This document shows positions 24,144 through 38,800 of a stretch of 38,995 bases of DNA, one piece after another (position 1 is the stretch's first letter; every line of letters starts with the position of its first letter). Source of the DNA: Thiobacillus sp. (GTDB taxonomy: Bacteria; Pseudomonadota; Gammaproteobacteria; Burkholderiales; Thiobacillaceae); NCBI GenBank assembly GCA_020057245.1, contig JAGVGD010000077.1, forward strand, positions 1 through 38,995, written 5' to 3'. The notes under the pieces are model-generated. The model did no database searches, had not been told where the DNA came from, and saw nothing but the letters and a program-made list of their open reading frames with translations. Position numbers and translations under genes: made by a program.

Positions 24144-24154
24144 TGATCATGCCA

Positions 24155-24168
24155 GCAACAGATGTTGC
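24155..24168. terminator. Weak hairpin between convergent genes
   Basis: GCAACA-GA-TGTTGC lies within a looser TGATC/GATCA outer pair, in the 72-nt gap between the oxygenase and cupin stop codons. The stem is short and no U-tract is present. Confidence 0.3.
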
Positions 24169-24215
24169 AGATCAGGTTTGAGTTTCTACCCATCAGGCTG
24201 ATATTCTTTAGGGTG

Positions 24216-24707
24216 CTACTTCGCTGTGTTCCTGCCTGTACTCACAACCGGCACCGCGTCCAGCGGCGACTCAAACGCAATGAAGAGGACACACGGTTCG
24301 CTGCTGGCGCAGAAGCCATCGTGGGGTCGTTTGGCCGGGCCGTATCCATAGGTTCCCGGCTTGAGGATGGCCGTCTTCTGCCCGTCATAGGTGACATGAA
24401 GCTCGCCGGCAACCAGCACCATGCGCTCTGCGGAGGTATGCCAATGCAGTGGGATGGTCGACCCGGCGGGCACTTTGAAGAACACGTCGAGATTGTCTTG
24501 CGCCGGGTCGCCGTGAAGTACGGCGATCGCACATCCTTTTGGCAAGAACGCTGGGCAAGGCCCCCACTTGAGCTGCGCATCATCGAAAGTCTGCGTCAGT
24601 GCCGGCTCGGGAATCGGCGCTTGTGCGAGGGCGAAGGGGGCGGCAAGGCCCAACCCAATCAACATGACTGCCGGGTATGAACGGTGAATGGCGGCGTGGA
24701 TTTTCAT
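24216..24707 (-). CDS. Secreted cupin-domain protein
   Basis: The 163-aa protein has a signal peptide (cleavage probably after FALAQA, about residue 30). A single cupin follows with a metal site of HWHTSAE (two His and a Glu) and, on the second motif, KPGTYGYGPAKRPHDG with the fourth His. Two cysteine pairs (GPCPAFLPKGC and CASSEPC) are compatible with disulfides in the periplasm. It resembles the ChrR-like/DUF4437 cupins that can act on or bind small molecules. The gap to the upstream papain-hydrolase gene is 52 nt with its own AAGGAG site, so it could be the last gene of the big operon. Confidence 0.8.
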   Translation of the reverse strand: MKIHAAIHRSYPAVMLIGLGLAAPFALAQAPIPEPALTQTFDDAQLKWGPCPAFLPKGCAIAVLHGDPAQDNLDVFFKVPAGSTIPLHWHTSAERMVLVAGELHVTYDGQKTAILKPGTYGYGPAKRPHDGFCASSEPCVLFIAFESPLDAVPVVSTGRNTAK

Positions 24708-24759
24708 GATGATGTCTCCTTTGGGTTGAACGCAGCGCGCGGCTGGCGGCTGCGTGGGC

Positions 24760-26778
24760 TCAGTATTTCAGGTCACGCGATGTGAACGGCCGCTTGGGCG
24801 CACTGCCTAGAACGCGGGTGAGCACTGAATTCATGGTGGCGCAGTCGTTGTCGAAGCCGCCGTGGCTGTGGCTGACGGAGGCGCCCAGCTTGATGGCGGC
24901 GGCTTCCTGGGCGGGATGGAGCGGGATGCCTTCCGAGACCACTAGCGCGGGGCGGCCGTCGACGCTTCCATCAAACAGCTTGGCGAGCGTCTTGTCGGCG
25001 TCGATGCAGGCCTTCATCCCCAGGATTGGCACCTCGCGCATCCCTTCGAAGGCGTTGGAGACGAGGTAGAGCAGCGATTTTCCATAGGGCCCCACGCTGT
25101 CATCGCGTTCCAGCTTGTCCGACAGGATGTAGAGGCTCGGCAGCGGGATATGCCCTGCTTCGAGGCCGGGCAGCAGCAGTTGCTTGAAAGTGTCGGTGCG
25201 GATCGCGGGGGCGAGGAACTGCACGCTCTTCAGCGGTATGCCCAGGTTCGCCAGCAGGGGCATGGCGTGGGCGGCGAAGATGCTGCCCGCCGAATGGCCG
25301 ACGATGTGCAGCTCCCAGCCGGCCTTGTCGTGGCTGGCCAGTTTCTTCTTGGCCAGTTCGACATAACTCGCGACAAGCTGGATGGCGCCGATGTTGTGCG
25401 GGTGGTCGGACGCCAGCCGGGCGTTTTCCTTCATCTCCCCCCACAACCGGTGGCCTGCGCGGGCGAGGGTGAGTTCGAGCACACGGTCCTTGGCCTCGGT
25501 CAGGTTTTCCATGAAGCCGCCGCCGGCGAGCTTGTCGGCTTCGGTGAACAGGTCCTTGAACAGGCCCGCGACGCTGGAGAGGAAGTCGCTCTCCCACATG
25601 ATGTGCAGGGGATAAATCTCGTTTTCAAGCATGACGTCGCGCATGGCGACGATGCGCTTGGCCGAGGCGGATTCGGAGTTGAGCCCGCCGTGCAGGTACA
25701 GCAGGATACGACGCTTCTTCCAGCCTCGGGCTTTGGCGGGGAGGGTTTCGCAGAACAGGCGTTCGATGTCGGACTCGGTGGTCCAGTATTCACCGGAATC
25801 GGACAGTTCGCCGTTGTTGGCGACGTCAATGACGTAGGGCCGGATGTCGGACAGCGGAATGGTGCGGCTGGCGCGCTGGATGCCGGAGGTGTCGATGGAT
25901 TTGTCGTCCGCCCACAGGTCCATCATGACTGGCACGCCGAGTTGTGCCACCCAGACGTCGGTGGCATGCATCAAGAAGTCTTCATAGGGCAGCAGCGCAA
26001 AACCGCCGGCGCCCCAGCCCGGCCCCCAGGAATTCTGGATGATGAAACCCTGCGGGGTGTAGCCGACGAGGGCAACGGCATGGCCGCCGTCGGCGCTGCC
26101 GCTGCGCTTGATCACGGGTAGCCTGAGCGTGACCTTGCGGCCGCGGTGCACATAGCTCACCAGCACCGGCTTGTCGCCCTTGCTAGCGCCCGGAGCGGCC
26201 CAGCCCGAATGCACCATCAGTGTGGCGTAGAGAATGCCGGTCTCGCTCAGCGCGGTGTGCATGTCGCGCACGTTGTAGGGGCGGATGCGGTAATAGGCGC
26301 CGCCCGGCGCCGCCATCGCCTGCTGGATGATGGCGTCGCTCATGTGCGTGATGCCATGCTGGTCGTCTTTCCATGCCGAGCGCAGACACACGCCGTGCTT
26401 GGACCAGGCCTTGATCGCGCCGCGTGCGGAAGAACCCTCGTAGGCCTCGCCCGGCCATTCGTCGTAGCGCCGCGCCAGTTCGTACAGCATGCGCGGGCTG
26501 ACGACGGCGGTCCGTTTCTGCTTGGCGCGCAGAAAGTTCACCACGGCTGCCAGCGCAAAGCCGGTACAGGCGCCTTCCTTGCCCTGGTCGAGAATCATCG
26601 CCGGCTTGATGAAGGCGCAACTCACCAGCGAATCCGGCAGTGAGATCAGCGCGGGCTGATAAAACCAGTCGCGCAGGTCGATGCGGTCGGGAAAGGCGTC
26701 GAGCCGCTGGCCGGTGGCCTTTTCAGCGCTGGTTTTGAGCGTTGGTTCGGACTGCGTGCGGGGGGACTTGAGGGCCAT
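24760..26778 (-). CDS. Papain-like cysteine protease fused to alpha/beta hydrolase
   Basis: The 672-aa protein has two enzyme halves. Residues about 30-285 form a papain-fold (C1) peptidase: oxyanion Q65 and nucleophile C71 in DQGKEGACTGFA, catalytic H233 in DGGHAVALVGY, and N249 in IQNSWGPGWG. Residues about 350-672 look like an alpha/beta hydrolase: YLHGGLNSE oxyanion region, nucleophile S496 in GHSAGS, a strand with VQFLAPAI, and a C-terminal SHSHGGFDND that may supply the catalytic His. No signal peptide or membrane segment is visible, so it is probably cytoplasmic. All catalytic residues needed for two activities (peptide bond; ester or lipid) appear present. Ribosome site AAAGGAAG; 29 nt after the cytochrome gene. 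Confidence 0.82.
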   Translation of the reverse strand: MALKSPRTQSEPTLKTSAEKATGQRLDAFPDRIDLRDWFYQPALISLPDSLVSCAFIKPAMILDQGKEGACTGFALAAVVNFLRAKQKRTAVVSPRMLYELARRYDEWPGEAYEGSSARGAIKAWSKHGVCLRSAWKDDQHGITHMSDAIIQQAMAAPGGAYYRIRPYNVRDMHTALSETGILYATLMVHSGWAAPGASKGDKPVLVSYVHRGRKVTLRLPVIKRSGSADGGHAVALVGYTPQGFIIQNSWGPGWGAGGFALLPYEDFLMHATDVWVAQLGVPVMMDLWADDKSIDTSGIQRASRTIPLSDIRPYVIDVANNGELSDSGEYWTTESDIERLFCETLPAKARGWKKRRILLYLHGGLNSESASAKRIVAMRDVMLENEIYPLHIMWESDFLSSVAGLFKDLFTEADKLAGGGFMENLTEAKDRVLELTLARAGHRLWGEMKENARLASDHPHNIGAIQLVASYVELAKKKLASHDKAGWELHIVGHSAGSIFAAHAMPLLANLGIPLKSVQFLAPAIRTDTFKQLLLPGLEAGHIPLPSLYILSDKLERDDSVGPYGKSLLYLVSNAFEGMREVPILGMKACIDADKTLAKLFDGSVDGRPALVVSEGIPLHPAQEAAAIKLGASVSHSHGGFDNDCATMNSVLTRVLGSAPKRPFTSRDLKY

Positions 26779-26807
26779 GCGACTTCCTTTCGTAAAGGCT
26801 TTCGGGA

Positions 26808-28268
26808 TCAGAGGGTTTTCAGGTGTTCAAGCAGCGCGGCCTTGCTGGCGTCCGGTAGGGCCGTGCCGAAGTCATGCCCCTGATTGCTGTTGCCGCGCAG
26901 CCGCGTGTCGAGTAGCGTGCCCGCGCGTTCGGCCGCCGGGCCCTGCACGACGAAGCCGACGCGTACCGGGTCGTAGACGTCGTAGCCGCGCCAGAAGACT
27001 TGCGGCCGCTGCGCGGGCGGCGTCAGCAGGTCGGACAGGGTCGGCACCGAGCCGTTGTGCAGGTAGGGGGCGCGCAGCCAGATGCCGTCGAGGAACTGCG
27101 CGACATAACCTGTCAGCGGGGCTTCGACCAGTCCTTTGCGCTGGATGCCCATGTCGCTGACGACCTTGTTGGCCTCGATCGCCGCCGGTTTGCCCCAGGT
27201 GTCGATGCGGCCGCGGTCGGTGCCGATTTCGGCAAGCGGAACGATGGTGCCGGTGCGTGCGCTGGCGTGGCAGGCCGCGCAGTTCGCATCGAACACTGCC
27301 TTGCCCTGCGCGGCGCGGGTGGCGTCGATGGGGAAGGGATATTTTGGCGCGGGCTTGTTCTTCAGGTAATCGACGAGCCAGTCGATGTGGCCGAGGAAAT
27401 CGTCCTTGTCCTTCGGTTCCGCGCCCATCAGCCCCAGTGCCGAATCGATGACGACCGAATAGGGATCGTGCGAGTCGCCGGCGAAGTTCATGCGGTGGCC
27501 TTTTTCCGGCTGGTATTTCTTCAGGTTCCACACTGACGGCATGTCAGTCGGGCCGAAGCTGTCGTCCATTGGCCAGCGGATCATGAAGTACTTGGTCAGG
27601 TTCATCGCGTCGTCGCGCCCGCGCCCCCATTCGGGAAAGTCGTGGCGGTAAAGCCACTGGAACTGGCCTTCGCGCTCGGTGAGCCGTTTCTTGGTGATGG
27701 GGATGATGAGGTAGCGATAGGCCATCCGGTCGATGAAATCGAGTTTGGAAGCGAGTTCGATCTCGGCCATCAGCGTGTCGGCGTTGAAACGCGGGTCTTT
27801 CGCGCAATCGACGAGGAAGCGGAAAAAGGCTTCGAGGTCGAGCGTGTGGTTAGGGCCGGTGACGACCAGCGTCGGCGTTTCGTCGGCTTGGGTGCGGTAA
27901 CTCGACACGTGGCAGGACGCGCAGGTGTTGGCGACGCGATCAAAACCAATCCGCCGCTTGGAGAATCCCACCGGCAGTTCGCGGCCTTCTTCCCACACCA
28001 CGCCGAAGCTGGCGTAGCCGACGCCGGGCTTGGGCAGTTTGTCGGGAAACACGCGCGGCAATACGTAGAAAATCCAGTAGGGGATGCCGGCGTCGTTTTC
28101 CGCGCCCATCGAGCCGTACTTGAAGCGGTCGTCCGGGTTGTCGAAGGCCGTCGCGCCGTAATCGCGCATCAAGCGGTTGTAGCCGACGATGCCGAGCACG
28201 ACGGCGAGGAGCAGCACGACGAGGCCGGTTATTTTCAGCCAGCGCGGACAGTTGCAAAGCGTCTTCAT
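26808..28268 (-). CDS. Membrane-anchored di-haem cytochrome c, RoxA/di-haem peroxidase type (paralogue 1)
   Basis: The 486-aa protein has an uncleaved N-terminal anchor (about 12-30) preceded by CNC at residues 5-7, and two haem sites, C116-A-S-C-H120 and C330-A-A-C-H334. Conserved blocks are DRFKYGSMGAENDAGIPYWIF, GYASFGVVWEEGRELPVG, PFPIDATRAAQGKAVF and APYLHNGSVPTLSDLL followed by RPQVFWRGYDVYDP. The last block is the pattern of RoxA/RoxB rubber oxygenases and related di-haem peroxidases and fatty-acid dioxygenases. The catalytic part faces the periplasm. It shares all blocks with the next gene (28279-29751), so the two are tandem paralogues. GAGGA ribosome site; 10 nt gap. Confidence 0.85.
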   Translation of the reverse strand: MKTLCNCPRWLKITGLVVLLLAVVLGIVGYNRLMRDYGATAFDNPDDRFKYGSMGAENDAGIPYWIFYVLPRVFPDKLPKPGVGYASFGVVWEEGRELPVGFSKRRIGFDRVANTCASCHVSSYRTQADETPTLVVTGPNHTLDLEAFFRFLVDCAKDPRFNADTLMAEIELASKLDFIDRMAYRYLIIPITKKRLTEREGQFQWLYRHDFPEWGRGRDDAMNLTKYFMIRWPMDDSFGPTDMPSVWNLKKYQPEKGHRMNFAGDSHDPYSVVIDSALGLMGAEPKDKDDFLGHIDWLVDYLKNKPAPKYPFPIDATRAAQGKAVFDANCAACHASARTGTIVPLAEIGTDRGRIDTWGKPAAIEANKVVSDMGIQRKGLVEAPLTGYVAQFLDGIWLRAPYLHNGSVPTLSDLLTPPAQRPQVFWRGYDVYDPVRVGFVVQGPAAERAGTLLDTRLRGNSNQGHDFGTALPDASKAALLEHLKTL

Positions 28269-28278
28269 GGCATCGTCC

Positions 28279-29751
28279 TCAGAAGGTTTTCAGGTATTCC
28301 AGCAGCGCCCACTTGTCGGCCGCCGGCAGCGTGGTGCCGTAGGCCGCGCCTTCGTGGCCGGCGTTGCCGTTGCCCGGAATCGCGGTGTCGTAGCGGAACA
28401 GACCGGGCGCTTCGGCGGTGACGAAGCCGAGGTGTTTCGGGTCGTAGAGATCGTTGCCGCGCCAGAAAACTTGCGGACGCTGCGCTGCGGGTTGCAGCAG
28501 ATCCCACAGCGTGGGCACCGAACCGTTGTGCAGGTAAGGCGCGCGCAGCCAGAGGCCGTCCAAGGGCGCGTTGGCGTAGCCCCAGGTTTTGCGGAAGTGG
28601 CGGAAGCGTCGATCCGGATCGGCCGAATACAGCATGCCCTGGTTCTGCGCAAGCTGCAGGGTGTAGGAATCGAGACGACCGCGGTCGGTGCCGATGACGG
28701 CAATCGGCGTGACCTTGCCGACGTAGTCGCCCGTGAAATCGCTGCCGGATTTGCCGTGGCAGGCGGCGCAGGTGGCGTCGTAGACGGCCTTGCCACGTGC
28801 GGCACGGGTGGCGTCGATGGGGAAATGTTTTCCGAACGCGGGGGGCGTGGCCGTGGCGATCCATCCCTCGATGCGCGCGATGGCGGCGTGATCGATGAGC
28901 TTGGGCGTGGCGCCGGTACCGAAGGCGGCGGAGAGATTGCGTTCCTCGACGCGGCTGTTGTTGCCATCCCAGTGCAGCTGCATTCCCTGTTTCTTCGCCT
29001 GGTTCCAGATCGCCGGGAAGTCGGATACGCCGACGAGTTCTTCTTTCGGCAGATGCTCGAAGGGCACGCCGAAAATGGCCTTCGCCGAATTGAAGGTGTC
29101 GACGCGCCCCGGCCCCCACTCGGCCTGCGCATGAATGAAGCGCAGCCGTCCGAGCAGGCCGGCGACGCCGTCGCGCATGAGGTAAATGCCGAGTGGGTAG
29201 ACCACGGTCTTGTCGAGCAGGCCGAGGCCGCCGGCTTTCTCCGCGATGCGCGGCACCACCTGCGCGGGGGTGAAGCGACGGTCGTTGACGCAGGTCTGGA
29301 CGAATTTCTGGAAGCGCATCAGATCCAGTTGATTCGCCGGCATGCCGGAAACCAGTATGGGTTGGGCCGTGGGCGACGTGCGCACGGTGGCGGTGTGGCA
29401 CACGGCGCAGTTGAGGAACACGCGGTCAATGCCCAGATGCCGCCGCTTCGACATGCCGACTGGCAGGTCGCGTCCGGGCTCGAAAATGAAGCCGAGCGAT
29501 GCGTATCCCTTGCCCGGCAGCATCTCGGGGCAGACGTCGGGCAACACCTGAAACAACCAGTAAGGGAAACCCATGTTGCGCTCGCCGCCAGTGGAACCGT
29601 ATTTGAAGTGTTCGACCGGGTCGTCGTAGGTCACCGGCCGGTCGGGCAGGAAGCGGATTGCGGCGATCAGCGCGAAGAGTAGAACCAGAAGGACGATCGC
29701 CCACAACCAGAAACGGCAGGCGCTGCACGATGGGGTGGGGGCGGGGGTCAT
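28279..29751 (-). CDS. Membrane-anchored di-haem cytochrome c, RoxA/di-haem peroxidase type (paralogue 2)
   Basis: The 490-aa protein has an N-terminal anchor (about 13-33) preceded by CSAC at 9-12, and haem sites C115-A-V-C-H119 and C328-A-A-C-H332. It repeats the blocks of the neighbouring paralogue: EHFKYGSTGGERNMGFPYW, GYASLGFIFEPGRDLPVGMSKR, FPIDATRAARGKAVYDATCAACH, LRAPYLHNGSVPTLWDLL and RPQVFWRGNDLYDP. The middle section (180-290) differs most and may carry specificity. Oxygenase versus peroxidase activity cannot be told from this view. There is no good ribosome site. The start is 7 nt after the 59-aa gene stop, implying coupling. Confidence 0.85.
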   Translation of the reverse strand: MTPAPTPSCSACRFWLWAIVLLVLLFALIAAIRFLPDRPVTYDDPVEHFKYGSTGGERNMGFPYWLFQVLPDVCPEMLPGKGYASLGFIFEPGRDLPVGMSKRRHLGIDRVFLNCAVCHTATVRTSPTAQPILVSGMPANQLDLMRFQKFVQTCVNDRRFTPAQVVPRIAEKAGGLGLLDKTVVYPLGIYLMRDGVAGLLGRLRFIHAQAEWGPGRVDTFNSAKAIFGVPFEHLPKEELVGVSDFPAIWNQAKKQGMQLHWDGNNSRVEERNLSAAFGTGATPKLIDHAAIARIEGWIATATPPAFGKHFPIDATRAARGKAVYDATCAACHGKSGSDFTGDYVGKVTPIAVIGTDRGRLDSYTLQLAQNQGMLYSADPDRRFRHFRKTWGYANAPLDGLWLRAPYLHNGSVPTLWDLLQPAAQRPQVFWRGNDLYDPKHLGFVTAEAPGLFRYDTAIPGNGNAGHEGAAYGTTLPAADKWALLEYLKTF

Positions 29752-29758
29752 GGCGGCG

Positions 29759-29938
29759 TCAGAACGGTTTCGCCGTGCGATTTTTCTCGCACAGCTTCAA
29801 GTAGGGGTCGATGGCGTGCTGCTTGAGGTCGGCCGGGCCCATTCTCCCCAGGTCCTCGATGCGTCCCTGCATGCGGTTGAGAAAGGCGTTCCATCTGGCC
29901 AGGCGGGTAGCCTGGAAGGCATCAAAGGGATGGGTCAT
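29759..29938 (-). CDS. 59-aa protein, unknown
   Basis: The ATG at 29938 has AAAGGA 6-7 nt upstream. The frame overlaps the end of the preceding cytochrome gene by 17 nt and stops 7 nt before the next cytochrome ATG. The peptide is soluble and basic, with an amphipathic helix (FQATRLARWNAFLNRMQGRIEDLGR) and one cysteine (KLCEKN). It has no signal or membrane segment. No family recognised. Ribosome site, tight packing and clean start/stop make it a likely real gene. Confidence 0.6.
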   Translation of the reverse strand: MTHPFDAFQATRLARWNAFLNRMQGRIEDLGRMGPADLKQHAIDPYLKLCEKNRTAKPF

Positions 29939-31508
29939 GTGATGTCCTTTCTGCTCGGGATGGGGTGGCGGGCGGCAGGCAGGCGCGCAGCTGCGCGTAA
30001 GGCCGGGCAAGCAGCGCTTCGGGCGAGCGGCCCTGGGCGTGCAGGCGCAGGCGCATGTCCTGCAGCAGCGCTTCCAGGCTGGGCGAGCGCGCCCATGCTT
30101 CTGCATCCATACCGCGCGCGGCGAGGATGGCGGACGGCGGCATGGGCGATTTGCCGCGCTGCGCCGTGGCGGTTTTTGCCATGCTGAGGCGATAAAAGAT
30201 GCGTTCGGCGCAATGGTCGAGGCGGGCGTCGACGCTGGCCGCATCGCCATGCAGGAAGTTCGGCGGTTCGTTCGAGGTGCTGTCGTGGCAGACGCCGCAG
30301 TGGGTGCGAAAGCGGCTGTCTTCCACCGGGCGGGGTTCGGTGCGGGCGGGGGGAAGCACAGCAATGGCGGTTTTGCGCGGCTGGCCGAGTTCGGCCGACA
30401 GGGCATCGAGTTGCGCCTGGCCGAATGGTCGGGCGGCCAGTGCGCCGCGAACGCGCAGGGTGTCGAGCACGGCGCTCAGGTCGCGCTTCGCCAGTTGCCG
30501 TACGGCAACGGGATCGAGCATGCCAGCGAGGCCGACGACGAAGGCGGTCTTGTCCGGCGCTTTCCAGACTTCCAGCGGCGGACGCGGGAGCAAGGGGTCG
30601 CTGGCCGGGTCGGGCAGCGCGGCCAGTGGGTCGCGGTTGGGCAGGTCGGGATTGGGGATGGGCAGCCCCTGTGGCCAGACGGCTTTCCAGTTGTGATCAA
30701 GCGTGGCCAGGCTGTCCGGTGCGGGCAGCTTGCCGAAGCGGGCGTAATCGAGGGCTGCAGCGAAGGCATCCCTGCGGCAGCGGTTGCCGGTTTCTCCCGC
30801 GCCGCAACCTTGCTGCCACAGCAATTGCCAGACCGGGAACAGATTGGCGCGGTCGGTCGCCGTATCAATGAAATAGGCGATGTCGGTGCCGCTGAGTTTG
30901 ACGTCGTAGAAGTCGCGCCGCGCCGTTTTCAGGCGCGCGGCAATCGCCGGATTGGCCGGCGTCTCATCCCACAGCGGACGGGCGAACATCGGCGCGGCAT
31001 TCTGGTGGCAGGCGAGGCACAGGCTGCGCCGCGCGTAGAAAACCTGCGGCGTCTTGCCTTTTTGATAATCGCGCACGATCTGGAATTCGAAGCGGCCTGC
31101 AGCATCGTTGTAGCTGATGACTTCGACGACTTCGCCCTTCTCGTGATAGCCGAGGAAGAGGCGATCTTTGAGCGGCGGAACGCCGGGTTTGTTGCTGCCG
31201 TCGGCGGCGGCGACCACGCGCGGATAGTGAAAGAAATCGGGCGCGCCGGCGTCTTTTTGCAGGGAGCGTCCCAGCGGAATCAGGGTGACTTTCAGCGGCG
31301 GCAGGCCGCCAGCGTCGGGCTGCATCTGCGCGTTGATCTGTTTTGCCAGTTTTGAAAACGGATAGGGCACCGGCGCGTGGCCGATCAACTGATCGAAGCG
31401 CGAACGACCGATGTGGGGGAGGTCATCCTGTGCGGCGGCGTCTGCGGTGGTCTGCAGGGATGTGTTCAGCATGGCAGCGAACATGATCGTGATCCAGCCC
31501 GATTTCAT
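29922..31508 (-). CDS. Secreted di-haem c-type cytochrome
   Basis: From ATG 31508 (4 nt after the lipoprotein stop) the protein is 528 aa; the GTG at 31547 is less likely. A signal peptide (ITIMFAAMLNTSLQTTADAAAQ) is followed by a mature part with two haem motifs, C164-L-A-C-H168 and C404-G-V-C-H408. The first sits in QVFYARRSLCLACHQNAAPMFARPLWDET, so the haem lies in a loop after a strand; the second in RFRTHCGVCHDSTSNEPPNFLHG. It lacks the LHNGSVP block of its neighbours, so it belongs to a different di-haem family, perhaps an electron-transfer partner. Similar proteins are annotated simply as cytochrome c. Its end overlaps the 59-aa gene. Confidence 0.8.
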   Translation of the reverse strand: MKSGWITIMFAAMLNTSLQTTADAAAQDDLPHIGRSRFDQLIGHAPVPYPFSKLAKQINAQMQPDAGGLPPLKVTLIPLGRSLQKDAGAPDFFHYPRVVAAADGSNKPGVPPLKDRLFLGYHEKGEVVEVISYNDAAGRFEFQIVRDYQKGKTPQVFYARRSLCLACHQNAAPMFARPLWDETPANPAIAARLKTARRDFYDVKLSGTDIAYFIDTATDRANLFPVWQLLWQQGCGAGETGNRCRRDAFAAALDYARFGKLPAPDSLATLDHNWKAVWPQGLPIPNPDLPNRDPLAALPDPASDPLLPRPPLEVWKAPDKTAFVVGLAGMLDPVAVRQLAKRDLSAVLDTLRVRGALAARPFGQAQLDALSAELGQPRKTAIAVLPPARTEPRPVEDSRFRTHCGVCHDSTSNEPPNFLHGDAASVDARLDHCAERIFYRLSMAKTATAQRGKSPMPPSAILAARGMDAEAWARSPSLEALLQDMRLRLHAQGRSPEALLARPYAQLRACLPPATPSRAERTSHDPSL

Positions 31509-31512
31509 GGCG

Positions 31513-32385
31513 CTAGCGCTGCGCCAGTACCCGTTTCTGCGTGCCACTCCAGCAGTCGTCCTTGATCTGGCCGGTTTCGAATTCGGCGCGGCCGGCTTTG
31601 TCGATATCTTTGCTGTAGAGCACGAAGTTGAGGATGAAGGCGTGGTCCATGTAGGCGCGGCCGAGATAGAGGCCGGGACGCACCATGCGGATTTCGTCGC
31701 GCACCTTGAGGCCGCGCCGCCCGGCGAGGAAATCGGGTTTTTCGCGGTAGCCGTGGATTTCGTCGGTGAAGGCGTAGTCGATGATGATGGATTCGCGGCG
31801 CGAGTCGATCAGGCTTTGCCCGCAGTAGAGCTTGGCGGGAAACAGCAGCCAGGCATCCTTGCCGTCGACGTCGATCTTGCCGATTTCGCCAGGGCCGATG
31901 ACGGGGCGCAGCACGGCGAGGTCTTCGATGCGGTTGCGCAGCACTTTTTCATTACGGTAGAACACCTTGCCTTTCCACAAGGCTTCGCCTGCGGTTTCCA
32001 GCATCTTGCCCTTGAAGTTGACGCCGAGGCCTTTGAGTCCGCCAATGATTTCGGCTGCGCGCAGCTTGCCCGAGCTGCCGCGCGGGAAGACGATTTCGCC
32101 GTCGAAGGGACCATCCGGCATCGGCCCGGAGCCGAGCCGTGCGTAGAGCTGGTCGAGTTCCTCCTGGTTCAGCCCGGCGAGATACTTGGGCGTGATCTTG
32201 ACGAGTTTCTTCAGCGGGATGGGGTGTTCGTATTCGACTTGGGCGAAGTCGGGCTTGCTGGCGTAGTCGTCGCCGTAGGGCGCGAAGGCGATGTCGGGTT
32301 TGCCGCCAAACAGGTCGCTGATTTTTTCGCAGCCGGATACAGGCGCGATCAGCAGGGCGGCGAGGAGCAGGATACGTGCGTTCAT
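31513..32385 (-). CDS. Lipoprotein, unknown family
   Basis: The 290-aa protein has a lipoprotein signal with lipobox VSGC (Cys19) after MNARILLLAALLIAP. No transport-retaining Asp follows at +2 (Glu), so outer-membrane sorting is likely. The mature part is a mix of strands and helices without haem motifs: VEYEHPIPLKKLVKITPKYLAGLN, an LVFPRG-like strand, GKDAWLLFPAKLYCGQSLID, and late LYLGRAYMDHAFILNFVLYSKD. I do not recognise a family. AAGGAG precedes the ATG. It is 13 nt after the 856-aa cytochrome gene, so it may be a partner or anchor for it. Confidence 0.75.
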   Translation of the reverse strand: MNARILLLAALLIAPVSGCEKISDLFGGKPDIAFAPYGDDYASKPDFAQVEYEHPIPLKKLVKITPKYLAGLNQEELDQLYARLGSGPMPDGPFDGEIVFPRGSSGKLRAAEIIGGLKGLGVNFKGKMLETAGEALWKGKVFYRNEKVLRNRIEDLAVLRPVIGPGEIGKIDVDGKDAWLLFPAKLYCGQSLIDSRRESIIIDYAFTDEIHGYREKPDFLAGRRGLKVRDEIRMVRPGLYLGRAYMDHAFILNFVLYSKDIDKAGRAEFETGQIKDDCWSGTQKRVLAQR

Positions 32386-32398
32386 GGCGTGTTCTCCT

Positions 32399-34969
32399 TC
32401 ACAGCGTCGCCAGGAAGGCGATCAGCGCGTTCTTGTCGGCATCGCTCAAGTCTTCGCCGAAGCGGTGACCGTCGTTTTCGATTTCCGCGCTGCACGAGGC
32501 ATACACCTGCCACAGCGCGGGTGTGCGGGCGCGCGCTTCCTTCACCACGTCGACCAGCCGGTTGGGATCGGACACGATGGCCTTGCCGATGGCCTGCATC
32601 TCGGCCGCAAGCTTTTGAGCCTCGGCGGCGGGCAGTACGGTGGCGAGCCGCACTTCGAGTTCGGCCGGTTTCAGCTTGGCACGCACCAGATCGACGATGA
32701 AATCCTTGTGGCGGAAGTTGCCGACGTTGCCCGCGGTTGCGCCCGCCGGCACCCGCACAGTGAAGCCGACCAGGCGTTTTTCCTCCTGGCCGTCGAAGAT
32801 GCGCGGGCCGATGTCGAGCACGATGTCCTCGTCCACCTTGGTTGCCTTGGGAATGCGTTTCGACGGGTTGAGCAGATCCTGCATCGACGCGACGTAGAGC
32901 TTGAAGCGGCCGTCGACCGAGGGATCGTATTTCCAGCACGCCGGCTGCCTGTCCTTTGCCAGCGGCGGATTGCCCGGCTGGCTCGTGTCCACATAACTGG
33001 AGCGGTACAACTCGTAGGCGTTGGTCTTGTCACCGCCCCAGCCGCACAGTTCGGGGCCGACCGCGTTGTTGTGCAGGAAGGGGGCGTGCGCCCACAGGTT
33101 GACCAGCGAGACGTTGCGGTAGTAGCCGCGCCCGCCGTCGTGCGGTTCGAGGATGCCGGATACGGTCTTGCGCGCGTGGTAATCCTCGTCGGCGAACTGC
33201 TCCCAGACGTGGCCGCGCAGGTGGTTGGAATGCAGCGAACGGCAGCGGTAGGTGCCGACTTCGGTGACCGGCGTCGGTACGTCGTTGCCCAGCCAGTCGG
33301 CGCGCAGGCCGCTCTTGCTGTCGATGGCGCGGAAGTCGACCGTTTCGAACGGCGGCTTGCCGCTGGAATGGCAACGCGCGCAGTTGGCGACGAATACCTG
33401 CTGGCCGCGCGAGACCGCGTCCTTGCCGAAATTGCTTTCGAGGTCGCGCACCAGGTCGGTCTGCACGTAGGGTGTTTGTTTCTGGTTCGCGCGTGCCTCG
33501 ACCAGGTCTTTGGCCTGACCTTCGGGGGCGGTCAGGAAGAAATCGAGCAGGTTGGGCAGCCGGTCTTCGATGGCGCGGAAGTTGGGGCAGTCGCGCCGGC
33601 ATTGACCGATGTCGAACGGCGTCTGACCGAAGTTGCGCGCCTGCGGGTCGAGCTGGCGCAGGTCGGTGAGGTGGTTGACCCAGCACTGTTCGGAGCACGA
33701 GCCGATGTTGAAATACACGCGCTGGATCGCGCCGAGCGCGCCGATCGAATCGCCGCCGCCCTTGAGGATGTGGTGGACGGTTTCAGTCTTGAGGGATTTT
33801 TCCCAGCACTTGCCGGGTTTGCCGGGTTCGCACCAGCAGGTCGATTCTTTCGCGCCGGTCGGGCACGCTGCTGCCTTGCGCCAGCGGTTGACTTTTTCAT
33901 TGGCGAAAACGGGCCGCTGCGCGGTGTTGATGAGCGCATTGATGGTGCCGGCGTTGTTCACCTGGTCGTTTGGAATCGCCGAGGTGTCCGAGGTGCCGGG
34001 ACGCGCGTGGGAGAAAATCTGCCACAGCAGGTCGTCGTGCGGCATGCCGGAGATCAGCACTTCGGAGACACGGATGTACTGGTTGCCGACCAGGCCGGAG
34101 AGGTTTTCCCACTTCGGGTGTTCGGGATCGAGCGGCGGCTTGGCCGGGTTGAAGGCCACGTGGCACGAGGCGCACGCGGTGCCGATCAGGAAGGGCGGCT
34201 CGATCGAGGCGTCGGCCAGCTTGCGCACCTTGGCGTCGGCGCGTGCCGGATCGTTCGACAGTTTGCGGTTATAGCCTTCCCAGGTGCCGAGGTTGCCGTT
34301 GACCTGTTTCCATGCCGCCGGATCGAAGCGCGGGTTGGGAAATTTGCGGAAACCGAGTGCGCCGGTGGAGGTGCCGAAGGCGAGGTTGCAGCTATCTTCG
34401 CGGCCTTTCTGGTGGCCTTCTGGATCATTGGCGTTGACGCTGGCGTCCTCGAAGTCGCAGGCGGGGTCGCGATAGCCAGGCTTGCCGACGAACTTCAGCA
34501 ATTCCTGATCGCCAGGGCACCAGTCGAAGCCGTAGGTTTCCGCGTAGCTTTTTGCCGGACAGCCGTCCGATCCGGGTTTGCAGCATCCCGGATCGTTGAT
34601 CAGTCCCCAGGTCTTGAAGCGGGTGTCGCGCGCATCGCTGCGCAGCACGCCGAACCAGTCGATCAGCGCGGTGATGCGTTGCTGGAAAGTGTAGGTGTGG
34701 AAGCGCGCGTTACCGGCCGTGGCCTTGAACCAGATTTCGCGCCCGGCGCGTGCCGACGGCGACAGGCCGGCTTCGCCTTCGTGGAAGCCGGCGTCGCTGT
34801 AGGGCGATGCAGCATCGGGCAGCGCATCTGTGGCCGGGCTGGTTGCAGATTGCACAAGGACGGGTGTTGGCGGCACGGTAGCGAACGCGGCATCGGGTTG
34901 GTGTGTGAACCATGCCAGTACGGCAAGGCTTGCGATGCTGAAGAAACCTAACCAGGTCGATGTCTTCAT
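32399..34969 (-). CDS. Large cysteine-rich di-haem cytochrome c (856 aa)
   Basis: The N-terminal signal/anchor (about 5-22) is followed by a long Ala/Pro region. The two haem motifs are C266-A-S-C-H270 and C530-A-R-C-H534. The MauG/peroxidase-like layout ends with VNLWAHAPFLHNNAVGPELCGW, matching APYLHNGSVP in the RoxA-type paralogues downstream. By my count 18 further cysteines are present, many in close pairs (GCCKPGSDGC, CWCEPGKPGKC, CSEQC, CRRDC), which suggests a disulfide-stabilised extracytoplasmic protein. It is larger than RoxA (about 680 aa). The AGGAG ribosome site and ATG at 34969 are clear. It is separated from the patatin gene by 58 nt with a small hairpin. Confidence 0.8.
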   Translation of the reverse strand: MKTSTWLGFFSIASLAVLAWFTHQPDAAFATVPPTPVLVQSATSPATDALPDAASPYSDAGFHEGEAGLSPSARAGREIWFKATAGNARFHTYTFQQRITALIDWFGVLRSDARDTRFKTWGLINDPGCCKPGSDGCPAKSYAETYGFDWCPGDQELLKFVGKPGYRDPACDFEDASVNANDPEGHQKGREDSCNLAFGTSTGALGFRKFPNPRFDPAAWKQVNGNLGTWEGYNRKLSNDPARADAKVRKLADASIEPPFLIGTACASCHVAFNPAKPPLDPEHPKWENLSGLVGNQYIRVSEVLISGMPHDDLLWQIFSHARPGTSDTSAIPNDQVNNAGTINALINTAQRPVFANEKVNRWRKAAACPTGAKESTCWCEPGKPGKCWEKSLKTETVHHILKGGGDSIGALGAIQRVYFNIGSCSEQCWVNHLTDLRQLDPQARNFGQTPFDIGQCRRDCPNFRAIEDRLPNLLDFFLTAPEGQAKDLVEARANQKQTPYVQTDLVRDLESNFGKDAVSRGQQVFVANCARCHSSGKPPFETVDFRAIDSKSGLRADWLGNDVPTPVTEVGTYRCRSLHSNHLRGHVWEQFADEDYHARKTVSGILEPHDGGRGYYRNVSLVNLWAHAPFLHNNAVGPELCGWGGDKTNAYELYRSSYVDTSQPGNPPLAKDRQPACWKYDPSVDGRFKLYVASMQDLLNPSKRIPKATKVDEDIVLDIGPRIFDGQEEKRLVGFTVRVPAGATAGNVGNFRHKDFIVDLVRAKLKPAELEVRLATVLPAAEAQKLAAEMQAIGKAIVSDPNRLVDVVKEARARTPALWQVYASCSAEIENDGHRFGEDLSDADKNALIAFLATL

Positions 34970-34983
34970 GGTGCTCTCCTGTG

Positions 34984-35004
34984 TTCAGGGTGGACAGCCC
35001 TGAA
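34984..35004. other. Intercistronic hairpin
   Basis: TTCAGGG (34984-34990), loop TGGACAG, CCCTGAA (34998-35004) forms a 7-bp stem in the largest gap inside the operon, upstream of the 856-aa cytochrome gene. No U-tract; it could modulate processing or translation. Confidence 0.4.
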
Positions 35005-35027
35005 ACTTGGTCAACAATTGGGCGCTA

Positions 35028-37706
35028 TCAGGCAGGCTCGTCACGCTGTTCGCGCAGGATTTCGCACAGCCACGGCAGGATCGGGCCACTCTCGCCGGCC
35101 ATTTCCTGCCGCTGGATCGCTTCGAGAAGTGGTGCGTGGAAAACCGCTTTGCCGATGAGGTGCCCGAGCTTGCGATAGCTTTCGAACTGCGATTCGTCGA
35201 ACCACTGGTCAGCGGTCGATTCGTGCGGAAAGCCGGCGTGGGTGCATTTGTAGTTGAGCAGGTCGGCCGGCTCGGTACCGGTGAGGCGCGGCTTGATGTA
35301 GATCAGGTAGGCATCGGGGGCATCGGGATACATCACGCGACCGACCGCGGAATAGCCGCTTTCCAGATCGTTTGCGCAGATATCGATGACCACGCCAAAG
35401 TCGGCGTAGCACTTGCGGATGGCGTTGCCCAAGTCTTCGAACTGGTTTTCACCATCCTGCCCCGCATCGATGACGACCATGCAGGCACAGCGCCGGCGCA
35501 CCAGTTCGTAAATGCCCAGATTCTCGAAATGCCCGCCGTCGGACAGGTAGACGAATTTCGAGGTGAACCGGGTCAGGCCGAACAGTTCGCTCAGCAGATA
35601 GCTGCCGCCGAAGGGCGGATCGTGCAGCGTCCAGACATTGTCGTTCGCCGGATTCGGGCTCCAGTGGCCGAGGCGGACATTGAACACCGTCATCAGGAAG
35701 GTCAGCGCGGGCGAGCTGTGATAGCCCATGTTGGGCGAGGCGGCAGCGCCCGAGATCGCCATCGCCGATCCCATCCAGACCCCTTCCATGTATTGCGAAG
35801 TGGGGCGGTAATGGCTTAACAACAGGCCTTTTTCGTCGGGCAGGGTGAAGCTGTAGCCGGTGGCCATCGGCGTGAAGGCAAACGCGGCGGCGCGGCGTTG
35901 CTGCCAGGCGAGTTGCTTGCCGGAGACCAGATTCATCGCGGTGTTGAAGATGGGATAGGGGCGTTGGCATTGCGGCTTGCCGAGCGGTGCGTTGCACAGG
36001 CTGGCCAGCTTGAGGTCGTCGCGCGGGTCGAATCCGGTGAAAGGATGCGGAACACGCAGCTTGCACCGCGATGCGCCAAGGTAGCAGCGCACCAGGCGCT
36101 GACGGTAGAAGTGATAGATCGAGAACAGGTTGACGTCGACGCGCGAGGCCAGCGCGGCGGCGGCGCCCAGACTGCCCAGACACAACACTGCAATCCAGAA
36201 AACTCCGACGTGCTGGAAGTTGAAGGCTTCCTGATAGAGCACGTCGGGCAAGTAGGTGGATGTGCTGGCGTGATGCATGCATTGTTCGCAAAACACTGGC
36301 AGCATCAGCAGTTGATGCAGGCCCAGCGACAACACGCCGAGCAGGCCGACGATGAAAATATAAGGCACGACCTGGGCGATGCGGTCGCGCCAGGTCGGGC
36401 GGGTGTCGACGGACGTTTTTTCGCTCCGTCCGAGCAGCACGCCGGTCAGCGTGGACAGCGCCCAGGTCGCGCCGCCGGCGGCGATGAAGGCCTGCGGCGC
36501 CCAGCGGAAGAAGGCGGGCGCAATGTAGACGATGCTGAACAGGGCCGCCCATACCAGCGAAGCGAGCAATACCCAGCCGCCGAGGCGCGCCCACCACTCG
36601 CGCGAGTCGTGCGAAAAATAGCGTCCCATCAGGCCGATGTGGCCGACCACGGTGAGCGAGTAGAACTTCAGCAGCAGGGCGGTGGCGAGTGCCGAGGCGA
36701 TCCAGGAACCGCTGTAGCCATGGCCGATTTGCTGGATGTAGCCTGCCACCCTGGCGAACGCGGCGAACAGCAGGCCGCCGAGTGCGCCGGCCAGCAAAGC
36801 GAAGAGCGCCATCTGGATGATCCGTCCTGGCGAAAATTCGGGTTGTTCGCGATTGCGGCCGAGGAACCGGCCCAGCACCCAGCCCGCCAGCCAGGGTGGC
36901 ACGTAGATCAGCATGCCCCACAGCACCCAGCCCTTGAGCGTGATCTGATTGAGCTGGTCGGCGCCCGCGTAGAAGCCGTAGGCGATGAGCCAGGCCGACA
37001 GCAGTGCGGGCAGGACTACCAGGGCCAGTACGCCTCTTTGCTGGGTGAAAAAGGGACGCTTTTGATAAGCGCCCCGGCTGCCGAGGTTGAGGCCGATGAA
37101 CAGCATGGCAATAAAAATGCAGCCGATGCCGCCGGCGAACAGCGGGAGCAGATTGGCCGGCGCATGGGTTTGGCCGTTTTCCCAGCCGGTGAGCCAGCGC
37201 GCAAACCACACCAGCAGGCGCGGCAGCAGCAGCAAGCCGCCCAGTGCCAGCAGCAGCAGGGTGAGATTGAGGTAGAGATTGCGCAGATAGGTGGCGACCG
37301 CGGTGAGCGTGTCGGCCGAAAACAGACTGACCTGGGGGGTGAGGTAATTGCTGTAGCTGCGCAGGAAGCGGATTGCCGGGTTCTCCTCGCCGCCAGTCTT
37401 CAACTTGTCTTCGGCGTCCTCGATCCGGCCGTTGCACTTGATATGGATGAAGGCTGACAGCCAGCCGCCGATATAGCCGCCGCCCGATACGCACGACAGA
37501 TAGTCGAATTGCCGCAGCAACCGCAGTTCGGCCAGCGCCTGGGTGATGCCCAGATTGAAGGTGGCGCTGCGGATGCCGCCGCCGGAAAACGCCAGTCCCG
37601 TCAGTGGCCGCTCGGGGCCGTCGTTGCGGCCGTCGGGCTCGCGGATGGCGGCGCGCTCCTGCGCATGAACGCTGTGCCAGTCGAGCGAGGTCGGTGCGTC
37701 GGCCAT
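35028..37706 (-). CDS. Patatin-like phospholipase with inserted polytopic membrane domain
   Basis: From ATG 37706 the protein is 892 aa; a longer open frame upstream is shadow. The N-terminal patatin half has the oxyanion loop FSGGGIRS (40-47) and nucleophile S74 in LSCVSGGGYIGGW, where the usual first Gly of GxSxG is Cys72. The matching catalytic Asp, D723 in YLSDGGHFENLGIYEL, comes some 650 residues later. Between them lie nine or ten hydrophobic segments (about 148 to 520) and a C-x2-C-x-H-H motif (C473, C476). The two patatin halves probably meet on the same face of the membrane. Expected activity is release of acyl chains from lipids. There is no strong ribosome site, and the start is 5 nt after the 80-aa gene. 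Confidence 0.85.
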   Translation of the reverse strand: MADAPTSLDWHSVHAQERAAIREPDGRNDGPERPLTGLAFSGGGIRSATFNLGITQALAELRLLRQFDYLSCVSGGGYIGGWLSAFIHIKCNGRIEDAEDKLKTGGEENPAIRFLRSYSNYLTPQVSLFSADTLTAVATYLRNLYLNLTLLLLALGGLLLLPRLLVWFARWLTGWENGQTHAPANLLPLFAGGIGCIFIAMLFIGLNLGSRGAYQKRPFFTQQRGVLALVVLPALLSAWLIAYGFYAGADQLNQITLKGWVLWGMLIYVPPWLAGWVLGRFLGRNREQPEFSPGRIIQMALFALLAGALGGLLFAAFARVAGYIQQIGHGYSGSWIASALATALLLKFYSLTVVGHIGLMGRYFSHDSREWWARLGGWVLLASLVWAALFSIVYIAPAFFRWAPQAFIAAGGATWALSTLTGVLLGRSEKTSVDTRPTWRDRIAQVVPYIFIVGLLGVLSLGLHQLLMLPVFCEQCMHHASTSTYLPDVLYQEAFNFQHVGVFWIAVLCLGSLGAAAALASRVDVNLFSIYHFYRQRLVRCYLGASRCKLRVPHPFTGFDPRDDLKLASLCNAPLGKPQCQRPYPIFNTAMNLVSGKQLAWQQRRAAAFAFTPMATGYSFTLPDEKGLLLSHYRPTSQYMEGVWMGSAMAISGAAASPNMGYHSSPALTFLMTVFNVRLGHWSPNPANDNVWTLHDPPFGGSYLLSELFGLTRFTSKFVYLSDGGHFENLGIYELVRRRCACMVVIDAGQDGENQFEDLGNAIRKCYADFGVVIDICANDLESGYSAVGRVMYPDAPDAYLIYIKPRLTGTEPADLLNYKCTHAGFPHESTADQWFDESQFESYRKLGHLIGKAVFHAPLLEAIQRQEMAGESGPILPWLCEILREQRDEPA

Positions 37707-37711
37707 GGGGT

Positions 37712-37954
37712 TTACCAGACCATGATCGAGGTTTCGGCGGCCGCTTCCGCGTAATACAGGCGGAAGCCGATCTGATAGCGCCGGCCATTGATCAGGCGCA
37801 TGTCGATGCGCGCGCGCATGGCATCGACGGCGGGGTCGAACTGCCGGGGGTTCTGGATGGGCTGCGAGCAATAGCGGATGGCTGCAGGGTCGGTTTTTCC
37901 GGACGAAGGCTTGGCTTTGGATGAAAGTTTGGCGGTTTTGGGTGATTTGGCCAT
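37712..37954 (-). CDS. 80-aa basic protein, unknown
   Basis: The first 25 residues are Lys/Ser-rich and probably disordered (AKSPKTAKLSSKAKPSSGK). The rest holds a helix (FDPAVDAMRARIDM) and two strands (NGRRYQIGFRLYY, ETSIMVW). AGGAG lies 6 nt before the ATG, 9 nt after the amidase stop. No family recognised. The small, charged nature and tight coupling to the patatin gene suggest an accessory or inhibitor role. Confidence 0.65.
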   Translation of the reverse strand: MAKSPKTAKLSSKAKPSSGKTDPAAIRYCSQPIQNPRQFDPAVDAMRARIDMRLINGRRYQIGFRLYYAEAAAETSIMVW

Positions 37955-37963
37955 GGGGTTCTC

Positions 37964-38800
37964 CTAGGTGCCGAGCGGCACGAGATATTTGCTGTGGCAC
38001 CAGCCGACGATGTCCATCACGCCGTTGACTTCGCCCACCACGTCGACCTGCCACCACAGCCCTTGCTTCAGCAGCACTTCGACTTCGGTGCCGAGCGGCA
38101 AGGGCGTGCCTGGCAGCGCGGCGAAGTCGGGGCCGGCGCCGCTGCGCACAAACAGCCGGGCGGAGGTGCGGTAGCGCTCGGGGTGATCGTCGCTGCGGCC
38201 CATGAGGCGGGCGCGCACCGATTCCATCGGAAAATCCGGGCCCGGATCGACCTTGCGGCCCGGGGCGATGTCGTCGTGGCCCAGCACATCGGCGAGACCG
38301 TAGTGTTCGACCAGCGCCATCCCGCATTCCAGGGTGGCCAGGATTTGTTCAGGGGTGTAGGCGTGCCAGCCGCTGGGGGCGGCGCCGGGCGGTTCGTTCT
38401 TGTGGGGGGCGACGGTGACGTCGCGGTCCGGGTAGCTTTTGCGCGTGAGTTTGGATACCCACTTGCCGCCGCTGCGGATCAGGATGCCGGCATTGTCGAG
38501 TTCGATGCCGATGCTGTGGCGATTCAGTCCGGAATAATGGCCCCAGCGCGACTGGCCGGCGTGCCAGGCTTCGTGGTTGAACGGCACCATCTGGGTGACT
38601 CTGCCGTCGCGCGCAATCACCAGATGCGCGGAAACTTTGGATTTAGGATCGCGGAACCAGCCGATGGTCCCCGCTGCGCTGCTGCCACCGGTGTAGTGGA
38701 TGATCATGAAATGCGGCGCGATCGTCCTGCCCGCATGCGGGCTGGCAATGTACGCCGCCTGACCATCGTCTCGCATCAGACGGTGATTGCGGACTTTCAT
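37964..38800 (-). CDS. N-acetylmuramoyl-L-alanine amidase (amidase_2, AmpD type) with SH3-like C terminus
   Basis: The 278-aa protein has the amidase_2 fold (about 20-190). Zinc ligands are H35 in MIIHYTGG, H175 in GHDDIAPGRKVDPG and D185 of the same block; SAHLVIARDGRVTQMV and GLNRHSIGIELDNAG are also typical. The C-terminal 70 residues (LFVRSGAGPDFAALPG ... WWQVDVVGEVNG ... WCHSKYLVPL) look like a bacterial SH3 domain. No signal peptide is visible, as in AmpD. In this family it cleaves the amide between muramic acid and the stem peptide. It is the first gene of the long minus-strand operon, with a palindromic operator-like site 118-133 nt upstream of its start. Confidence 0.88.
   Translation of the reverse strand: MKVRNHRLMRDDGQAAYIASPHAGRTIAPHFMIIHYTGGSSAAGTIGWFRDPKSKVSAHLVIARDGRVTQMVPFNHEAWHAGQSRWGHYSGLNRHSIGIELDNAGILIRSGGKWVSKLTRKSYPDRDVTVAPHKNEPPGAAPSGWHAYTPEQILATLECGMALVEHYGLADVLGHDDIAPGRKVDPGPDFPMESVRARLMGRSDDHPERYRTSARLFVRSGAGPDFAALPGTPLPLGTEVEVLLKQGLWWQVDVVGEVNGVMDIVGWCHSKYLVPLGT

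Follow-up and report, generated by a model that had tools for sequence, protein, structure and literature searches.

To our knowledge, oxylipin-type lipid oxygenation has been described in few bacteria. The best point of comparison for the genes discussed here is the oleate-diol synthase operon PA2078-PA2077 of Pseudomonas aeruginosa (10S-DOX and 7,10-diol synthase). In its published accounts, the activity is periplasmic (PMC5155153), and PA2077 alone is toxic until the toxicity is relieved by PA2078 (PMC4496055). PA2077 keeps the equivalents of both Trp302 and Phe317 of the rubber oxygenase RoxA, PA2078 has Ser in place of the Trp, and the Phe317 equivalents are F269 and F260, respectively (PMC4496055). 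The two proteins are also named di-heme cytochrome c peroxidase in print (PMC5155153), and in the P. aeruginosa oxylipin papers the roles of oxylipins in prokaryotes are called largely unidentified. Here we analyze a stretch of 38,995 nucleotides (nt) from Thiobacillus sp., hereafter the window, which is a single contig (JAGVGD010000077.1) of an assembly that is 82% complete. One strand carries an operon, numbered g1 to g11 in transcription order, in which a tandem pair of RoxA-like di-haem proteins (g8 and g9) is combined with a patatin-like phospholipase (g3), two further di-haem proteins (g4 and g6), a lipoprotein (g5) and several hydrolases. The single families are known. No described system joining them, as the earlier note on this DNA had held, and no paper on the composite operon or on its Rhizobium counterpart, was found in the open-licence PubMed Central (PMC) literature.

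Kinship of the cytochromes and the nature of the hydrolases

Both members of the tandem pair match the Pfam family RoxA-like_Cyt-c (PF21419) and, by profile, the RoxA structure 4b2n (E 2.7e-31). Each has two haem sites, CAVCH115 and CAACH328 in g8 and CASCH116 and CAACH330 in g9. The motif PYLHNGSVP is invariant in 22 rows of alignment A3, is present in five proteins of Rhizobium, Sinorhizobium and Qingshengfaniella, and occurs in all seven proteins read for their active-site columns. The haem and axial His columns, including the equivalent of RoxA His641, are invariant in nine aligned proteins. In the alignment to 4b2n, W261 and F277 of g8 fall at RoxA Trp302 and Phe317, places at which g9 has Phe and Leu. 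RoxA is also the sole PDB fold matching the g8 model with E < 0.001 (Foldseek, 1.2e-5), and the comparison by VIA gives Z 9.0 with a root-mean-square deviation (rmsd) of 3.4 over 118 aligned residues, the model being used for fold ranking only. The MauG chain 4l1q reaches Z 3.0 against the same model, so that a relation to MauG is possible. The larger g4 is a more distant protein whose two CxxCH motifs and His835 are invariant in the 12 sequences of alignment A1; it has a hydrophobic N-terminus and, like g6, is probably exported. A distant g6 homologue (33%) adjoins a g4 homologue in one locus (L122; locus stretches are numbered with L, genomes with G).

The patatin scores 25.6 bits with the Pfam model against a gathering score of 27.7, a relative in L171 reaching 29.3. 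Its motifs are a GGGxR/K oxyanion motif at 42, the Ser in SGGG at 74 and the Asp in DGGHFENLG at 723; strict patterns for the three occur in 80, 81 and 65 of 86 open reading frames (ORFs) of relatives, a count that takes in duplicates and pieces at contig ends. The fold is split between its Ser and Asp motifs by eight hydrophobic segments and, this being an even number, the two halves of the active site would face one side of the membrane. Residues 27-278 of g10 match PDB entry 3ois (3.8e-18). The fold model of g5 is unusable, with a predicted local distance difference test score (pLDDT) of 34.7. In a hydrophobicity scan, an N-terminal hydrophobic segment is absent from the g1 amidase and the g10 papain fusion, as it is from the metalloprotease, lipase, GH13 and peptidoglycan (PG)-binding proteins of relatives, so that the wall remodelling suggested earlier finds no support outside the cytosol.

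Two modules, two relics and exchangeable cargo

A patatin scan yielded 58 loci, of which the fifteen closest (L031-L041, L043, L058, L082 and L085) have a best-segment patatin identity of 73-94%. In these, seven backbone genes, namely the amidase, the patatin, the 856-residue di-haem protein, the lipoprotein, the 528-residue di-haem protein and the RoxA-like pair, keep a constant order. Counted only where the contig reaches, and with partial genes at contig ends taken as found, g1 is present in 13 of 13 loci, g4 in 14 of 14, g5 in 13 of 13, g6 in 13 of 13, g8 in 12 of 12 and g9 in 9 of 9. Identity of the lipoprotein is 84-93% across 12 relatives and falls to 70% in L042, a locus with a patatin of 60% that has every backbone gene except the amidase. 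In L075, also with a patatin of 60%, no other backbone gene lies in the 10-kb flanks and two small cytochromes adjoin the patatin. Among 117 genomes of the family, g4 is found in 18, g8 in 17 and both in 16; departures from this pairing are G847 and G832, with contigs ending inside g6, and G785, which has a distant g4 only.

The operon is flanked by QueF and an FGGY kinase on one side and by glyoxalase, EamA and DapC on the other. To examine the empty site, 12 congeneric operon-free genomes were searched and 10 of the 12 regions fetched. The kinase directly adjoins the glyoxalase in five of the ten; other genes lie between the two in three (L191, L193 and L195), and two have no kinase in the stretch. 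Four operon-free congeneric genomes have a different patatin, about 50% identical, at another place. Judged by these comparisons, the operon is one inherited unit, present all or none at an otherwise syntenic site. The site holds or lacks a whole operon of roughly 15-20 kb, with cargo exchanged at gene borders.

Another genus of the family points to a finer subdivision. There, the metalloprotease, g4, g5, g6, g8 and g9 form a run with no amidase or patatin (L206, with g6 divided into two gene calls, and L207; partly L209 and L213). In G779, one of these genomes, amidase, patatin and g10 lie on a separate contig (L171), and two more relatives (L166 and L168) combine g10 and patatin with a PG-binding protein, GH13 being added in one. 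Comparison thus shows, at the level of gene content, a composite operon of two modules: a cytochrome module (g4, g5, g6, g8 and g9) and a hydrolase module (amidase or PG-binding protein, patatin, and papain-alpha/beta-hydrolase). The earlier idea of one joint unit holds insofar as the order is kept in close relatives and the whole block is absent at the syntenic site; it does not hold as an inseparable machine of eleven parts, given two relics and modules found apart. Similarly, the scattering of homologues that was to speak against joint function is seen in part, with the modules at separate places in the other genus and the backbone intact in the fifteen closest loci.

By the same comparison, extra hydrolases have entered or left the operon at gene borders, and two remain in the window as relics. 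Nine of the eleven proteins counted by the earlier note are full-length; on DNA comparison, its proteins of 80 and 59 residues (g2 and g7) are in-frame deletion relics of a metalloprotease and a class-3 lipase, respectively. The closest relative, G823, with a g3 94% and a g1 96% identical to those of the window, has an intact metalloprotease of 374 residues at the place of g2, with the amidase on one side and the patatin on the other (L172). The full-length form in L035 matches Pfam Peptidase_M10/Astacin. The window retains both ends of this gene, and about six bases are common to both sides of the deletion junction. In the same manner, g7 consists of the two ends of a 267-residue lipase that is intact between g6 and g8 in L041 (Pfam Lipase_3, 5.2e-28) and in L208 (82% to that of L041). 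That both deletions spare the frame, together with the short gaps, would fit a need for continued downstream translation, although chance is possible, as two such deletions would both be in frame in 1 case in 9 (n=2).

Further cargo in the close group includes, at the g4-g5 border, a beta-propeller and a FecR protein; at the g5-g6 border, GH13; at the g8-g9 border, a FecR-protein-like gene (identified by BLAST alone), a Sel1-caspase and a protein with an autotransporter domain; and, 3' of g9, a second patatin, a caspase-domain protein, an NB-ARC protein and a nuclease-like protein. Confinement of g10 and g11 to the window was considered and ruled out by longer stretches: g10 is present in seven of nine readable operon ends of relatives, and a 91% homologue of g11 stands at the same place in one of the nine (L212). 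G804 carries a g10 (L211 7128-9146) with 97% identity to that of the window, yet its g4 reaches only 88-89%, which suggests that parts of the operon may have separate histories. Recombination inside the operon is a possible reading of this likeness.

Some features of the cargo proteins deserve a separate record. Two unlike caspase-domain proteins (L152 7532-9328 and L211 3947-5611) have been inserted at separate points of the operon, each in a different relative, the second having a hydrophobic N-terminus and Sel1 repeats. Short '(V)NI' stretches were seen by eye in the NB-ARC protein and its small neighbour (L155 8446-11134 and L210 8034-10719), and again in a 654-residue protein unrelated to the NB-ARC protein (L032 5221-7185). 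In the NB-ARC and 654-residue proteins they lie near the N-terminus and possibly constitute a signalling motif.

The layout of the window operon, nine full-length genes and two relics, is given in Table 1. The coordinates of eleven packed minus-strand genes are confirmed, with gaps of 4-58 nt or one overlap; the distances from g1 to g11 are 9, 5, 58, 13, 4, -17, 7, 10, 29 and 52 nt, the overlap being that of g6 and g7. A codon-usage gene caller trained on the nine full-length genes, g2 and g7 excluded, re-calls all eleven ORFs. The ratio of nonsynonymous to synonymous substitution rates of the nine, each against one or two relatives, is 0.045-0.325, indicating purifying selection. A scan of the operon for promoters and terminators was uninformative (promoter-like, 1 against 2.0 expected; terminator-like, 17 against 13.8 expected). 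Between the cupin and the glyoxalase, a 2OG-Fe(II) oxygenase-like gene (23193-24143, plus strand; Pfam 6.4e-10) sits in a stretch of low GC content, about 46-57% (22700-24500) against 64% around it, and had a tblastn match in none of 217 fetched loci.

Table 1. Genes and relics of the window operon, in transcription order (aa, amino acids)
Gene	Product	Coordinates	Strand	Evidence
g1	AmpD-like N-acetylmuramoyl-L-alanine amidase, C-terminal SH3	37964..38800	-	Pfam Amidase_2 2.8e-29, SH3_3 5.3e-6
g2	80-aa relic, matrixin/astacin-like metalloprotease	37712..37954	-	882-nt in-frame internal deletion
g3	polytopic patatin-like phospholipase, 892 aa	35028..37706	-	Pfam Patatin score and motifs (see text)
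g4	856-aa di-haem protein, distant RoxA/CcpA-superfamily member	32399..34969	-	CASCH266/CARCH530
g5	290-aa lipoprotein, lipobox by eye	31513..32385	-	no Pfam match
g6	528-aa di-haem protein	29922..31508; ORF opens 31547, GTG	-	CLACH164/CGVCH404
g7	59-aa relic, class-3 lipase	29759..29938	-	624-nt in-frame internal deletion
g8	RoxA-like di-haem protein 1, 490 aa, N-terminal hydrophobic anchor	28279..29751	-	PF21419 8.8e-17
g9	RoxA-like di-haem protein 2, 486 aa, N-terminal hydrophobic anchor	26808..28268	-	PF21419 2e-17
g10	papain-like cysteine protease (N-terminal) fused to alpha/beta hydrolase	24760..26778	-	Peptidase_C1 1e-4; GHSAG by eye
g11	cupin, N-terminal hydrophobic segment	24216..24707	-	Cupin_2 1.6e-11

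Occurrence beyond the family and proposed function

Outside the family g4 is rare, being found in 4 of 397 other genomes of a phylum sample by single-sequence and profile search alike. A GMC oxidoreductase stands beside it in three of the four, a g5-like gene in one and a g6-like gene in one. One g4-GMC run (L120) includes a DUF900 alpha/beta hydrolase, and another (L121) a Dyp-type peroxidase-like protein; a gene at L121 16333-17529 that looked catalase-like by eye has no Pfam match and was not used. Seen from the patatin, a g4 homologue lies in the same run in L042, L048, L070, L077-L080 and L113 (L114, which the search also gave, is the window itself, and L055 and L095 are a single contig). 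Patatin, g4 and GMC share one run in L070, L077-L080 and L113, and the patatin run includes the RoxA-like pair in L048 (Methylococcaceae), Rhizobium johnstonii pRL11 and Sinorhizobium fredii pSF45436e.

A plasmid search gave matches to g8 in 65 records and to g4 in 21; of the 18 g8 records at the head of the list, 17 recur among the 20 g4 records listed. The run of R. johnstonii 3841 has the order flavin oxidoreductase, a g8 homologue (45%), a 143-residue membrane protein, a g9 homologue (40%), a g4 homologue (26%), GMC and patatin. The S. fredii plasmid keeps this order, its last gene being annotated as hypothetical and 62% identical to the Rhizobium patatin. Mesorhizobium pOM4 has g4 and GMC with no patatin in the stretch. 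As the Rhizobium patatin resembles that of the window by 30% over 93 residues only and belongs to a different branch, a patatin was apparently recruited at least twice. On a Qingshengfaniella plasmid (L217 6043-12376), an alpha/beta hydrolase and an opposite-strand animal-haem-peroxidase gene (Pfam 2.7e-104) flank a g8 homologue. The peroxidase gene, of the family that includes the cyclooxygenases, is divergent to genes for a FAD-binding protein, a small membrane protein, the g8 homologue and the hydrolase.

The recurrence of patatin with g4, GMC and the RoxA-like pair in separate lineages is what links the operon to lipids. The reading judged most likely, which we favour only tentatively, is that the phospholipase frees fatty acids and the RoxA-like di-haem enzymes oxygenate them. 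For the substrates, the direction of the reaction, the membrane side, the roles of g4 to g6 and the reason for the wall and protein hydrolases, we infer the following. The patatin, aided by a lipase or an alpha/beta-hydrolase, would release fatty acids from membrane lipids, and g8, with its counterpart of the RoxA Trp302/Phe317 pair, would put oxygen on them at the N-terminal haem on the periplasmic side. A reactive hydroperoxide would then be converted by g9, in which neither residue is present, just as PA2078 acts for PA2077; this role is modelled on the reported toxicity of PA2077 alone and its relief by PA2078 (PMC4496055). The other two di-haem proteins may transfer electrons or carry out later oxidations, and the lipoprotein may hold the substrate or the complex. 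Further processing of oxidised lipids would be a fitting task for the old-yellow-enzyme-type NADH:flavin oxidoreductase and the GMC dehydrogenase of Rhizobium. The earlier suggestion of lipid remodelling coupled to periplasmic oxidation comes near to this proposal, its wall part excepted.

In plants, lipase, oxygenase, hydroperoxide enzyme and OPR act in sequence, and the operon could be a prokaryotic counterpart. In this extended form, a possible but doubtful one, patatin would supply fatty acid, g8 the hydroperoxide and g9, g4 and g6 the product of a full bacterial oxylipin pathway shared by methane oxidisers, rhizobia and sulfur bacteria of the Thiobacillaceae type, in which interchangeable hydrolases would widen or gate the substrate supply. 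The flavin reductase and GMC dehydrogenase of Rhizobium would be among the product-forming enzymes.

Several observations weigh against fatty-acid oxygenation. The fold model of g8 is middling (pLDDT 56), and its whole-chain superposition on RoxA is poor (template modelling score 0.24, rmsd 23.8). The Phe317 equivalent is Phe only in g8 of the window type (6 of 14 rows of alignment A2, L042 included); g9 and the distant homologues carry Leu, Ile or Thr there. The Trp302 contrast within the pair is limited as well, as g9 of L042, L048 and Rhizobium has Trp. RoxA Phe301 is replaced by His in g8 homologues and some g9, and by Asn in window-type g9; a His at this place could be of use to a peroxidase. 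At 490 and 486 residues, g8 and g9 are shorter than PA2077 and PA2078, with about 625-635 (ORFs of 1905 and 1875 bp). Finally, the cytochrome module occurs in another genus of the family with no adjoining patatin, patatin adjoins g4, divergently, in one of the four unbiased g4 matches, and the distant patatin is mostly alone: beyond the close group, where 76 instances were counted with duplicates and one window copy, only 15 share their run with a recognised partner, pieces of patatin left aside.

Because of this His and an NCBIfam label, peroxide reduction is the strongest rival, if an unlikely one. The four di-haem proteins would act at the membrane, as peroxidases or electron carriers, to remove (lipid) hydroperoxides, and the hydrolases would clear damaged lipid, wall and protein in a system of repair or detoxification. 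The NCBIfam model NF040606 (di-heme-cytochrome C peroxidase, cut-off 150 bits) indeed places g8 and g9 above its cut-off, at 206.9 and 167.2 bits, with g4 far below at 29.5; g8 has the His at the Phe301 place, and a g4-homologue run contains the Dyp-type peroxidase-like protein. However, the NCBIfam name is a label that PA2077 and PA2078 bear too in the literature (PMC5155153), neither g8 nor g9 matches Pfam CCP_MauG at E 0.1, and g8 retains the Trp302 and Phe317 of an oxygenase.

A conflict or self-lysis cassette is improbable. In it, cytosolic enzymes against wall (amidase), membrane (patatin, lipase), protein (papain, caspase, metalloprotease) and glycogen (GH13) would be exchanged in the manner of effectors, with the cytochromes sensing or reporting the state of the envelope. 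The cargo lends itself to this view, since L152 has a caspase-domain protein in the place of the papain-alpha/beta-hydrolase (its N-terminal hydrolase part recognised by eye), NB-ARC occurs in L155 and L210, and the Sel1-caspase stands between g8 and g9 in L211; the amidase, g10, metalloprotease, lipase and GH13 are devoid of export signals, and presence at the one site is patchy. Yet among ten proteins submitted to PADLOC 2.0.0 at E 0.001, none of g1, g3, g8 and g10 was matched and only the L152 caspase was. Moreover, the cytochrome module exists in another genus with most of the hydrolases missing, the nine full-length genes are under purifying selection, and no immunity gene was recognised, though none was searched for.

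That the genes have no joint function and merely accumulate, unrelated, behind one promoter at a busy insertion site is harder still to credit. Numerous unrelated inserts at gene borders, and the occupation of the site by other genes in L191, L193 and L195, would agree with it; the constant order of seven backbone genes in the fifteen closest loci, as far as their contigs extend, and the reunion of four of the families in Rhizobium and Methylococcaceae, do not. That the operon serves to attack an isoprenoid or a hydrophobic polymer, as RoxA and RoxB attack rubber, is very improbable despite RoxA being the nearest solved relative, for g8 and g9 score 48-74 bits with the NCBIfam models of RoxA, RoxB and RoxC and fail their cut-offs of 900-1000, and a hydrophobic N-terminal anchor suggests proteins that are not secreted.

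If fatty-acid oxygenation by g8 and g9 is correct, it would link an oxygenase to the phospholipase feeding it and give a function to RoxA-like proteins now labelled 'cytochrome c peroxidase'. R. johnstonii 3841, with the pair, the 856-residue family, GMC and patatin in one run, makes the question approachable. The composite operon also illustrates assembly from two modules.

Comparison with known systems

From its sequence the window operon is filed, as a candidate member, with the RoxA-like fatty-acid oxygenase pairs of the FadCcp, PA2077/PA2078 type. As in the P. aeruginosa operon, two RoxA-like di-haem proteins stand in tandem. By their description in PMC4496055, PA2077 and PA2078 share with g8 and g9 two CxxCH sites, PYxHNGSVP and the C-terminal axial His. 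In the window pair, as in PA2077 and PA2078, the RoxA Trp302 equivalent is kept by only one partner, whereas in L042, L048 and Rhizobium both partners have Trp. Unlike PA2077 and PA2078, g8 and g9 have a hydrophobic anchor and are co-operonic with a patatin, two further di-haem proteins, a lipoprotein and hydrolases.

The rubber oxygenases RoxA and RoxB resemble g8 in its MauG motif and in the Trp302 and Phe317 equivalents. They differ in that g8 has His at the Phe301 place and 490 residues against 662 in 4b2n, and in their gene neighbours. For the pRL11 cluster of R. johnstonii 3841 (RL_RS32270-RL_RS32240), no paper was found in the open-licence PMC literature, which was not searched by locus tag. 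Like the window operon, this cluster is a co-directional run that unites a RoxA-like pair and a g4 homologue with a patatin; it differs in adding the flavin oxidoreductase, GMC and the 143-residue membrane protein, in having no amidase, g5, g6 or papain, and in drawing its patatin from another branch.

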